Shown here piece by piece: positions 210-17,464 of a stretch of DNA of 34,351 nucleotides. The translations under genes were made by a program, and so were the position numbers. How positions within the stretch are numbered: position 1 is the stretch's first letter; each line of letters begins with the position of its first letter. This DNA comes from Niabella sp. Lineage in GTDB: Bacteria > Bacteroidota > Bacteroidia > Chitinophagales > Chitinophagaceae. A model generated the notes under the pieces. It did no database searches, was not told the origin of the DNA, and saw only the letters and a list, made by a program, of their open reading frames with translations. Location of the stretch: contig JAGIAQ010000040.1 in assembly GCA_017744795.1 (NCBI GenBank), forward strand, positions 17,226 to 51,576, written 5' to 3'.

Positions 210-241
210 TTTGGATAATAAGTGTACTCTGTCTATTTTTG
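210..241 (+). promoter_or_regulatory. Bacteroidota-type promoter of the asd leader transcript
   Basis: TTTG at 210-213, a 20-nt spacer, then TATTTTTG at 234-241 match the Bacteroidota consensus TTTG-N19-21-TAnnTTTG exactly. The predicted start of transcription is about 246-249, just ahead of a short leader ORF at 259. Confidence 0.7.
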
Positions 242-258
242 CCACAATGACAATTAAG

Positions 259-294
259 ATGAAACATACAAAAACTACCAAAAAGTGTCCTTAA
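259..294 (+). CDS. Thr/Lys-rich leader peptide of asd (attenuator)
   Basis: This small ORF encodes MKHTKTTKKCP and stops at TAA 292-294. Four codons are Lys (262-264, 271-273, 280-282, 283-285) and three are Thr (268-270, 274-276, 277-279), so 7 of 11 residues are end products of the aspartate pathway to which the next gene, asd, belongs. It sits about 12 nt after the predicted transcription start and is followed by mutually exclusive hairpins ending in an intrinsic terminator. This is the layout of a ribosome-mediated attenuator such as the enteric thr leader. The ORF and codons are read directly; translation and regulation are inferred. Confidence 0.65.
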   Translation: MKHTKTTKKCP

Positions 295-345
295 CGGAGG
301 GTCGTGGTGTTTGTGTGGTCAACATAAATTTTAACAGGCCTTCCG
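287..345 (+). promoter_or_regulatory. Predicted antiterminator and protector pairings of the asd leader
   Basis: Bases 295-303 (cggagggtc) begin right after the leader stop codon and can pair over 9 bp, including two G-U pairs, with 337-345, which is the 5' arm of the terminator. Bases 287-292 can instead pair with 297-302 around a 4-nt loop, giving a weak protector hairpin that would leave the terminator free. A ribosome at the stop codon would cover 295-303 and favour termination; one stalled at the Thr/Lys codons would leave it free and favour read-through. Confidence 0.55.
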
Positions 346-367
346 GATTTTCGGAAGGCTTTTTTTT
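338..367 (+). terminator. Intrinsic terminator upstream of asd (attenuator)
   Basis: gccttccg at 338-345 pairs perfectly with cggaaggc at 352-359, leaving a loop of about 6 nt, and is followed directly by eight T at 360-367. It lies only 22 nt before the asd start codon and after the promoter, so it would act on the asd transcript itself rather than end an upstream gene. Confidence 0.8.
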
Positions 368-389
368 AACATAAAAGGCGTAAAAAATA

Positions 390-1397
390 ATGAAAGTAGC
401 CGTTGTGGGTGCCACTGGTTTAGTAGGTACCAAAATGTTGCAGGTTTTGGCGGAAAGAAATTTCCCTGTATCCGAATTGATCCCCGTTGCATCAGCAAAA
501 AGTGTTGGTAAAGAAGTTGCTTTTAAAGGCAAACAATATAAAGTGGTAGGCATGGAAGATGCCATTGCTGCAAAACCGGATGTAGCATTGTTTTCAGCAG
601 GTGGCGGCACTTCTACTGAATGGGCTCCCAAATTTGCAGCGGCAGGCATAACGGTTATTGATAACTCCTCCGCATGGCGCATGGACCCTAAAGTGCCCCT
701 GGTGGTTCCTGAGATAAATGCCGATATACTGACCAGTAATGATAAAATCATTGCCAACCCCAATTGCTCTACCATTCAAATGGTAGTGGCGCTGGCGCCG
801 CTGCACAAAGCCTACAATGCAAAACGCATCGTGGTTTCTACCTACCAGAGTGTTACCGGCACGGGCGTAAAAGCAGTGAGCCAGCTGAAAGGCGAACGCC
901 AGCAGGAGGTAGCGGGTGGCGCAGCCGATTATGAAATGGCTTATAAATACCCCATCGATCTGAATGTGATCCCGCAGATAGACGTGTTCGTGGATAACGG
1001 CTATACCAAGGAAGAGATGAAGATGGTGAACGAAACCAAAAAGATCATGCGCGATGATTCCATCCGGGTAACGGCAACCACCGTTCGCATTCCCGTAATG
1101 GGCGGCCACAGCGAAGCAGTGAATATTGAATTTGAAAATGAATTTGACCTTGCCGACGTGCGCAACTTGCTGGAAACGGCACCGGGGGTAGTGGTGGTAG
1201 ACGACCTGGCCAGCCAGCAATACCCGATGCCAAAGGATGCGCACGAAAAGGATGAAGTATTTGTTGGCCGTATCCGCAGAGATGAATCGCAGCCCAAAAC
1301 CCTTAATCTGTGGGTAGTGAGCGATAATTTACGCAAAGGCGCCGCTACCAACGCCGTACAGGTGGCAGAGTACCTGGCAGCGAGCAATCTGATTTAG
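390..1397 (+). CDS. asd: Aspartate-semialdehyde dehydrogenase
   Basis: Reduces aspartyl phosphate to aspartate semialdehyde with NADPH, the branch step to Lys, Thr, Met and diaminopimelate. The 335-residue protein opens with the nucleotide-binding GATGLVG (residues 7-13). It carries the NPNCST motif with the catalytic Cys126, and the acid/base His in GGHSEA at His240 with Arg233 nearby. Length is normal for the family. The ATG at 390 begins directly on the Rossmann strand, as expected, so the start is secure. It follows a predicted Thr/Lys attenuator that fits its pathway role. Downstream genes are on the same strand, but a 128-nt repeat-filled gap separates uppS. Confidence 0.96.
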   Translation: MKVAVVGATGLVGTKMLQVLAERNFPVSELIPVASAKSVGKEVAFKGKQYKVVGMEDAIAAKPDVALFSAGGGTSTEWAPKFAAAGITVIDNSSAWRMDPKVPLVVPEINADILTSNDKIIANPNCSTIQMVVALAPLHKAYNAKRIVVSTYQSVTGTGVKAVSQLKGERQQEVAGGAADYEMAYKYPIDLNVIPQIDVFVDNGYTKEEMKMVNETKKIMRDDSIRVTATTVRIPVMGGHSEAVNIEFENEFDLADVRNLLETAPGVVVVDDLASQQYPMPKDAHEKDEVFVGRIRRDESQPKTLNLWVVSDNLRKGAATNAVQVAEYLAASNLI

Positions 1398-16208: not shown

Positions 16209-17464
16209 CAGTTAGCTTTAAGTGTGAATACTGCGATGACGGCCTCATTAGCAGATTTTGTTTTTATAATATTTTCCAGCGCTTTGGGAGTGGCTTTGGC
16301 TGCGTTGGGCTTAAAATCCCGGCGAATGGCATCCGCACTGAACAAGGTATAAAACAGGCTGTCTTCATAGATGGTATTGTAATCCGGAAACACTTTTATG
16401 CCAAAGGAGCTACTGTCGGCTTTTATTTTCCTGATATCATAAATTGTTTTGTTCTTTTTACTATAAATATAATTGCCGGAGTTAGATTGGAATCCGACTA
16501 TAAATAATATATGACTCCTGGTTTCAATCCAATTGTAGATCTGGTTCAGCAGCCAGCCATTGTTCCGCTGGAAATTCTCGCGCTCTGTTTTATTTTTAAA
16601 CGGCGTTGTAAAAAAATAAGGCGGCAAAGTATTTTCGAGTGGTAATATAATTTGATATGCAGGTGATATGCTGTCTTTTGTAAGTACATAGATAGTATCA
16701 TTATAAGGCCTTGTAACAAATCGTTGATGTGGATTGTCGGATTTTGGTGCGCTAACATAGTTTGTGGTATATAAATACCGGGGCTCTTTAATATGGTTAT
16801 AAGGGAAATATTGTTTTATTAGTGTGCTGTTTTTATATAGTTTAAGTTCGTAGTCGATACTGTCCTTATATAAATTGCTGGTTGTTATTTTATTTTGGGA
16901 ATAATAGTCGTCATCAAAAAGATAGGAGATGCCGCTAATGTCATTTGTAGTTGGGGTGCTTTTTTTAAGAGTAAAGCTGGTGTCATTCAAATCGATTACG
17001 TATTTTTTATAATATTTCCTGTTTTTAGGATTGTCAGGATCTAATTCAATTTTTATATTATCTTTCTGAGTAAGCGTATAATTTTTATTCTGCCCAGTGA
17101 AGGTAATTTGGTTGCCCTTTTCGTTATAGAAAGGATAGAAGTCCACAAAGCCATTGCCCAATTTTTTATAGGATACTTGCTTTACAAATGTTCCATCCTT
17201 TTTATAAAACAACAACTTTTTTTTGAGGTACTGAACAATTATAAAATAAGATTTTGCAATGGTAAGATTATCCGATTCGTCGATGTTTACATTATCCGGC
17301 TTTTGCAATGAAATAAACCGGAGCGAATCAATGAACTTAGACTGACTTTCTCCCCCGGCGGCTTTCGGGTTCAAATATATTTTTTGTACTTGCCCCTGAA
17401 CAATGCAATTCAGCAATAGACTGAGCGCAAGGGCAGTGGTATGGCATAGTAATTTATTTCTCAT
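16208..17464 (-). CDS. Secreted 6-bladed beta-propeller-like protein, copy B
   Basis: A 418-residue secreted protein with a signal peptide to about residue 25 (IVQGQ) and no lipobox Cys, so it is probably soluble in the periplasm. Repeated strand segments such as YFIIVQYLKKKLLFYKKDG and SLRFISLQ fit the 6-bladed beta-propeller family common in Bacteroidota. It is a paralogue of the gene at 20462-21709: LPLENTLPPYFFTTPFK here matches LPIDNAVPASFFTQDFK there. It overlaps the barrel gene downstream by one base. Parts are strikingly AT-rich; 16861-16920 has 16 G+C in 60 bases. It is hypothetical in function and probably works with the paired barrel. Confidence 0.7.
   Translation of the reverse strand: MRNKLLCHTTALALSLLLNCIVQGQVQKIYLNPKAAGGESQSKFIDSLRFISLQKPDNVNIDESDNLTIAKSYFIIVQYLKKKLLFYKKDGTFVKQVSYKKLGNGFVDFYPFYNEKGNQITFTGQNKNYTLTQKDNIKIELDPDNPKNRKYYKKYVIDLNDTSFTLKKSTPTTNDISGISYLFDDDYYSQNKITTSNLYKDSIDYELKLYKNSTLIKQYFPYNHIKEPRYLYTTNYVSAPKSDNPHQRFVTRPYNDTIYVLTKDSISPAYQIILPLENTLPPYFFTTPFKNKTERENFQRNNGWLLNQIYNWIETRSHILFIVGFQSNSGNYIYSKKNKTIYDIRKIKADSSSFGIKVFPDYNTIYEDSLFYTLFSADAIRRDFKPNAAKATPKALENIIKTKSANEAVIAVFTLKAN

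Follow-up and report, generated by a model that had tools for sequence, protein, structure and literature searches.

Upstream of asd in Niabella sp., a short reading frame rich in Lys and Thr codons is followed by an intrinsic terminator, which raises the question of whether the gene is controlled by a ribosome translating this leader and, if so, which amino acid is sensed. The element is very probably a transcription attenuator that works through the ribosome and responds mainly to the supply of charged lysyl-tRNA, as judged from the sequence of the window (the whole 34,351-nucleotide stretch of DNA that was analyzed) and from related genomes. Its features are collected in Table 1.

Table 1. 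Features of the asd leader region, in window coordinates.
Feature	Position	Strand	Details
Bacteroidota-type promoter	210..241	+	-33 TTTG 210-213, 20-nt spacer, -7 box TATTTTTG 234-241
Leader ORF MTIKMKHTKTTKKCP	247..294	+	ATG 247 in frame with ATG 259; stop TAA 292-294
Protector 5' strand	265..272	+	CAUACAAA, within leader codons; pairs with 310-317 in the fold
Putative control codons AAA AAG (Lys-Lys)	280..285	+	Aligned codons are Lys in 82/95 and 79/95
Antiterminator 5' strand	295..305	+	CGGAGGGUC 295-303 plus 304-305; directly after leader stop
Protector 3' strand	310..317	+	UUUGUGUG; covariation of family stem
Antiterminator 3' strand	334..345	+	337-345 common with terminator 5' arm
Intrinsic terminator	336..367	+	11-bp stem 336-346/351-361, loop 347-350, T-run 360-367
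asd, aspartate-semialdehyde dehydrogenase, presumed regulated gene	390..1397	+	NCBIfam NF011456 467 bits, TIGR01296 441 bits, both over cut-off

The original prediction, made from the letters of the window, had proposed a promoter, a Lys/Thr leader MKHTKTTKKCP, a strong terminator, and a 9-bp alternative pairing, and all four were found in place. The promoter is borne out as one of Flavobacterium type, absent from the calls of an E. coli-type scan: its TTTG and TATTTTTG match the Flavobacterium sigma-A pattern, in which a TAnnTTTG -7 box is placed at -12 to -5 (PMC9723704). From this placement, transcription is predicted to start near 246. The 11-codon leader form starts at ATG 259-261, a start at the in-frame ATG 247 gives MTIKMKHTKTTKKCP, and the Thr codons lie at 268-270 and 274-279. 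The terminator T-run ends 22 nt before the asd start, and the pairing of 295-303 with 337-345 is present in the minimum-energy fold of 247-346, together with 304-305 paired to 334-335. A weak protector hairpin that had been drawn at 287-302 fared less well; the leader-end hairpin is weak across relatives, and the pairing of 265-272 with 310-317 is the better candidate.

Folding energies for these parts depend on the segment chosen. The fold of 247-346 is unremarkable (z -1.5, matched by 15 of 200 shuffles), the segment 296-346 alone reaches -21.4 kcal/mol (z -4.5), and the full-length element gives z -2.9. Terminator-like sites are not rare, with 2 found against 3.3 expected by chance in 3 kb.

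Regions upstream of asd were sampled from 80 named loci and 130 genomes of the family (L081-L210). A search of 147 genomes gave an asd match in 143, of which 13, mostly low-identity matches, were left out, so the 93 of 130 family upstreams that carry the terminator pattern may overstate the family share; the other 37 lack the motif as defined by that pattern. With 25 of the 80 named loci (two of which have fewer than 120 nt upstream), 118 elements fit a pattern that was widened after misses were inspected and is therefore fitted to Chitinophagaceae; the leader is not part of it. A model-based search added L011 as a carrier beyond the pattern. Named carriers include Niabella, Flavihumibacter, Niastella, Limnovirga, Filimonas, Sediminibacterium, and Parafilimonas, and neither pattern nor model matched upstream of asd in the records of Mucilaginibacter, Pedobacter, Sphingobacterium, Dyadobacter, Spirosoma, Hymenobacter, and Algoriphagus among the 80 loci.

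Model R1 finds a match in 95 of 144 family genomes; at least G094 and G099 have theirs on a gene other than asd. It also matches all 17 genomes searched from the window's own genus (E 6.3e-7 or better; position beside asd checked for G000, G022, and G119). Locus L241 is not independent, because its relative L009 (100% asd identity) is in the model. In two Pedobacter loci (L023, L034) the attenuator element is absent, and strong terminator-like hairpins of other sorts lie 131-164 nt upstream of asd; these may terminate upstream genes or exert a different form of control. In family f100, the asd matches of two genomes contain one in-frame TGA each (G541:C8:503224-504195 and G530:C7:131234-132208), for which a frameshift, a pseudogene, or recoding may be responsible.

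Relatives keep the leader with the terminator, as the original prediction required: an ATG leader ORF ends before the terminator in 111 of 112 non-identical elements, and the sole remaining one (L137) seems to start at GTG. The leader consensus is approximately MxxMKHTKRTKKxS, and the leader MTIKKHTKIKKHP is common to a genome of the same genus (L082) and Niabella ginsengisoli (L001). Against a background of 247 long-ORF starts from the named loci, in which asd itself is included many times, and with the ORF richest in Lys plus Thr chosen where an element has several (as also in the geometry test), Lys makes up 24.8% of leader residues versus 10.0%, Thr 12.7% versus 7.2%, Met 5.0% versus 1.2%, and Ile 8.6% versus 6.6%. 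Lys occurs 3 to 6 times in every one of the 111 leaders. Thr is missing from eight, one of them (L009) from another family, and in the 11 distinct asd leaders of other families Lys reaches 29.0%, Met 8.1%, and Thr 2.2%, with Thr absent from 8 of 11. The core Lys codons keep their first two bases and vary between A and G at the third (AAG 71, AAA 11; AAA 59, AAG 20), so the conservation is codon-like.

The promoter recurs as well. In 86 of 110 elements, a TAnnTTYG box ends no more than 12 nt upstream of the leader ATG, versus a mean of 1.8 in mononucleotide shuffles, and the 89 elements whose box lies within 20 nt have a predicted leader 5' UTR of median 4 nt. The leader messages therefore appear to be nearly leaderless, and the window's own 5' UTR would be about 1 nt if translation started at 247. 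Leaderless messages account for 5.5% in Flavobacterium psychrophilum (PMC9723704). The leader-peptide message of Sinorhizobium meliloti trpL is likewise leaderless; it differs in its amino acid, tryptophan, and its phylum (PMC10117765).

Covariation was measured on an alignment of 95 elements with 500 shuffles, and supports the three stems to different degrees. The terminator is paired in 95.8% of cells with 45 double-change cells (13.2 in shuffles), the antiterminator in 84.8% with 16 (6.9), and the protector in 75.1% with 66 (31), and no shuffle of 500 reached the observed double-change count of any stem. In the protector, 9 of 11 pairs of the family stem show changes on both sides. When partners were slid by 1-3 columns, the terminator and protector dropped on every measure, save that the protector tied at slide +3 in its number of pairs with a double change. 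For the antiterminator, slid partners gave at most 68.3% paired cells versus 84.8% and a covariation score of at most 0.137 versus 0.153, but slides of -3, -2, and +3 gave more double-change cells (24, 19, and 17) than the real 16, and its four double-changed pairs were matched by 174 of 500 shuffles. The compensatory changes that had been called for in both stems are thus clear in the terminator, as they are in the protector, and less so in the antiterminator.

Because column covariation in the antiterminator is modest, its support rests more on single elements and concerted changes. The antiterminator match beats dinucleotide shuffles at p < 0.05 in 86 of 111 single elements; it does not in 25, and fails outright in L130 (p 1.0). 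Both strands have changed in concert to GGAAAGG with CCTTTCC (L091 and L121), GAGAAG with CTTCTC (L010), GGGAGGG with GCCTCCC (L169), and GGGGC with GGCCCC (L011). RNAalifold on the whole alignment recovered only the terminator.

The distance from leader codons to the antiterminator strand was measured in 110 of 112 elements; L169, for which the script found no stem, and L137, which has no ATG ORF, were left out. In E. coli, the leading edge of the ribosome lies 15 nt past the first P-site base, and this value was assumed. A ribosome starved at the last Lys codon before the antiterminator strand would stop a median of 2 nt short of it, and this gap falls within -2 to 5 nt in 104 of 110 elements, versus a mean of 41.4 and a maximum of 56 in 500 shuffles of leader residues. 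The other candidate residues are not placed this way: Thr is at the switch position in 16 of 102 elements versus 28.8 expected from shuffles, Met in 8 of 73 versus 14.3, and Ile in 19 of 83 versus 20.1. In the window, a ribosome with the second Lys codon in its A site would reach about 1 nt into the strand (-1 nt, slightly tight). A ribosome at the stop codon covers at least half of the strand in all 110 elements. Where the stop codon ends differs among elements, between 3 nt before and 18 nt past the strand's start, whereas the Lys codon holds its position.

Folding with the ribosome masked gave a median antiterminator probability of 0.99 at the Lys stall and 0.00 at the stop. The protector covaries, yet folding without a ribosome favors the antiterminator (median 0.85; 0.99 for the window's own element), and only 42 of 110 elements gain more than 0.3 in antiterminator probability from the Lys stall. 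The classical picture of attenuation would not predict an antiterminator that wins without a ribosome; the folding model, which ignores co-transcriptional folding, does not account for how a leader without translation would terminate.

Sequence comparison supports the original assignment: an attenuator before asd that works through the ribosome and whose terminator and antiterminator exclude each other. A short ORF carries regulatory codons for a product of the pathway, an intrinsic terminator lies between this ORF and the gene, and the antiterminator excludes the terminator and is kept in relatives, with compensatory change that is modest against slid controls. The spacing is such that a stalled ribosome would free the antiterminator strand and a finishing ribosome would cover it.

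The same architecture was found before other genes when model R1 was run on 39, 295, and 144 genomes. Elements precede dapA in 7 of 144 family genomes from five genera (G002, G024, G029, G036, G085, G102, G121), lysA in G001 (E 0.0026), an aspartokinase gene in G099 (E 2.0e-4), and an aminotransferase gene in G094 (E 1.9e-4), and related elements precede thrA and hisG in other families. In G001, G094, and G099 the asd element is absent by the pattern, and the lysA, aminotransferase, or aspartokinase element is present instead. The last-Lys gap is 3-5 nt in the seven dapA leaders, 3 nt for lysA, 1 nt for the aspartokinase, and 3 nt for the aminotransferase. In two dapA leaders (L269, L361) a Thr at 2 nt stands nearer the switch point than the last Lys, and in two others, from two genomes of one genus (L285, L362), Lys is kept and Thr is absent. 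DapA is on the route to diaminopimelate and lysine, and LysA serves lysine alone; the simplest signal common to them is therefore lysine.

NCBIfam or Pfam matches identified the genes at L269, L361, L363, L232, L254, L251, L365, and L364; the remaining dapA genes were assigned by a dapA search or by reading the protein, and L261 by reading. Most of the dapA and thrA genes examined in the family lack such an element: a terminator with a Lys leader was seen in 4 of 30 dapA upstreams, including G036 (L295, recovered as L368), and candidate leaders in 2 of 30 thrA upstreams (L301, L302). Weak R1 matches are common (155 of 295 genomes of the class at E 0.05) and most are presumably plain terminators; a weak match was accepted only after its leader and gene had been read, as for lysA (E 0.0026) and the L261 thrA (0.0012). 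Of the 22 matches read, 17 combine a leader with a suitable gene (asd in 12, thrA in two, and hisG, lysA, and dapA in one each). Five matches without both (L233, L256, L258, L260, L270) were rejected, as were L366 and L367 among eight further stretches, and nine further scored loci lie outside the set that was read (L234, L259, L262-L268).

Several of these elements differ in stem sequence or in the amino acid encoded. The Lys-leader elements before the aminotransferase and aspartokinase genes (L364, L365) have stems of GGTAGGC/GCTTACC type. In other Bacteroidia families, thrA-type aspartokinase genes follow Thr/Ile leaders of like geometry, MYNSTIIITIIITTGRNLAEE (L254, 1501-1621) and MTINNTIITTIITTGIKDGGR (L261, 1501-1633), with last-Thr gaps of 5 and 1 nt; by sequence, these resemble the enteric thr attenuator within Bacteroidota. 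For the candidates L301 and L302, codon placement does not fit or is ambiguous. A hisG gene follows the leader MKQFTHIHHHHTFP (L251, 1501-1621), which has the same switch geometry using His, with a last-His gap of 3 nt. At L255 the script mis-picked the antiterminator strand.

Joint sensing of Thr and Lys, proposed originally because asd serves both amino acids and taken here as about equal for the two, is a possible but distinctly less likely reading than sensing mainly of lysine. The Lys half of the proposal stands, with Lys in every leader and precisely placed. Thr is enriched and is commonest at the third (70 of 95) and sixth (49 of 94) codons of the core, and in the examples inspected, the folding model keeps the antiterminator available when the ribosome stalls at a codon before the last Lys as well. 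Against an equal role, Thr is dispensable in the asd leaders of this and other families, is not placed at the switch point, and is absent from two of the dapA elements, which keep Lys; conservation of the ACA codon is, moreover, confounded by its pairing in the protector.

A general sensor of the aspartate family (Lys, Thr, Met, and Ile, all derived from the Asd product) is improbable. It would account for the excess of Met, especially in other families, and the slight excess of Ile; neither residue is concentrated at the switch point, and second ATGs in the leaders may be alternative starts.

A metabolite-binding riboswitch or T-box is very improbable, even though covarying stems do precede the terminator. 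An Rfam scan of all 34,351 bases gave no match at gathering score, T-box and other cis-regulators included, and the lysine riboswitch RF00168 (L-box) was found in none of 60 family genomes, with four control genomes matched. Codon-like third-base variation at Lys codons and a Lys position that holds while the stop varies also argue against it. Low Rfam scores on the leader (19 rows, including trpB and Phe_leader) were below gathering scores and were set aside. The enteric Thr_leader RF00506 has no match in the window and exceeds its cut-off in 0 of 40 genomes; its below-cut-off matches in 25 of the 40 (the window's own included), often on both strands of one place, were taken as terminator noise. 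That the terminator simply ends a co-directional pfkB-type kinase gene, which stops 72 nt before the window, with the ORF and pairing due to chance, is scarcely credible given that a promoter and leader ORF lie in between and that leader, spacing, and second pairing recur in relatives.

The preferred reading is thus a lysine-responsive attenuator, whose start site, ribosome stalling, termination, and lysine response can be inferred from parts, conservation, covariation, and spacing that sequence and comparison establish. Transcription would start near 246, and a ribosome would translate the leader from an almost leaderless message. With sufficient lysine, the ribosome would reach the stop codon and cover 295-305, the terminator stem 336-361 would form, and polymerase would stop near 367. 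When lysine is short, the ribosome would wait at the Lys-Lys codons with its leading edge at the start of the antiterminator strand, which would then be free to pair with the 5' arm of the terminator and allow transcription of asd. In Chitinophagaceae, Thr shortage at the two Thr stretches may contribute, although this is uncertain.

The thr operon leader of enterics (thrL, RF00506) and the trp, his, leu, and ilv leaders form the leader-peptide class. Like these, the asd element has a leader ORF rich in end-product codons and a terminator and antiterminator that compete, with ribosome position proposed to decide between them; its assignment, by parts and logic, to this classical class as a lysine-responsive attenuator of Bacteroidota is well supported by sequence. 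It differs from enteric thrL in its target (asd, also dapA and lysA, rather than thrA), in Lys as the placed codon, and in the lack of an RF00506 match over cut-off. The L-box binds lysine directly, in contrast to a leader peptide, and was not found in the window or the 60 family genomes. Both would sense lysine supply for the same pathway; the L-box is described as controlling lysine genes, and attenuators as controlling histidine, threonine, and phenylalanine operons (PMC1262725).

In Sinorhizobium, the translated sORF SEP5 has six codons for Thr and three for Lys and is described as a possible leader peptide in the 5' UTR of a gene that the source names aspartate dehydrogenase (PMC10117765). 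It shares with the asd leader its Thr/Lys codons, its 5' UTR location, and a proposed leader-peptide role, but it belongs to an Alphaproteobacterium, is conserved only in Sinorhizobium, and holds more Thr than Lys; the description used for this comparison mentions no terminator, antiterminator, or covariation (PMC10117765). The original remark that such a leader is not a textbook case is fair, with the qualification that a Thr/Lys leader had already been proposed there (PMC10117765). In 2010, the authors of PMC2965389 wrote that, before their own Firmicutes case, leader-peptide systems were known to them only from Proteobacteria and Actinobacteria. Within Bacteroidota, sORFs reminiscent of leaders are mentioned in Bacteroides (PMC7366714), and clues to leader-peptide attenuation are noted upstream of amino-acid operons of F. 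psychrophilum, which share the phylum and the presumed mechanism, with no asd or lysine case named in the relevant passages (PMC9723704). No lysine leader-peptide case was found in the portions of PMC11109978 and PMC8632094 covered, nor was a lysine leader-peptide attenuator found among the titles and abstracts of the matches listed, in which subscription journals are thinly covered.

Chitinophagaceae and neighboring Bacteroidota families probably run a leader-peptide lysine regulon, in which one mobile, near-leaderless architecture is set on asd and, by lineage, on dapA, lysA, aspartokinase, and aminotransferase genes, with a Lys codon at a fixed distance from the antiterminator. This would be the first lysine-specific family of leader-peptide attenuators and would replace the lysine riboswitch. 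If true, it would illustrate one pathway swapping its sensor, and the fixed distance between Lys codon and antiterminator gives a simple rule, open to testing, for finding and naming other Bacteroidota leaders.

Downstream of asd are a prenyltransferase gene and a gene for a POTRA-repeat protein. Directly after asd, at 1395-1487, ATAGTCTATAGTTCATGG-like units are arranged as a long, imperfect palindrome, accompanied by GACTATT in a 7/21-nt tandem array; this region may mark where the asd message ends or belong to a repeat family. Further along the window, a 24-nt tandem repeat occupies 17250-17310 in 2.5 copies.
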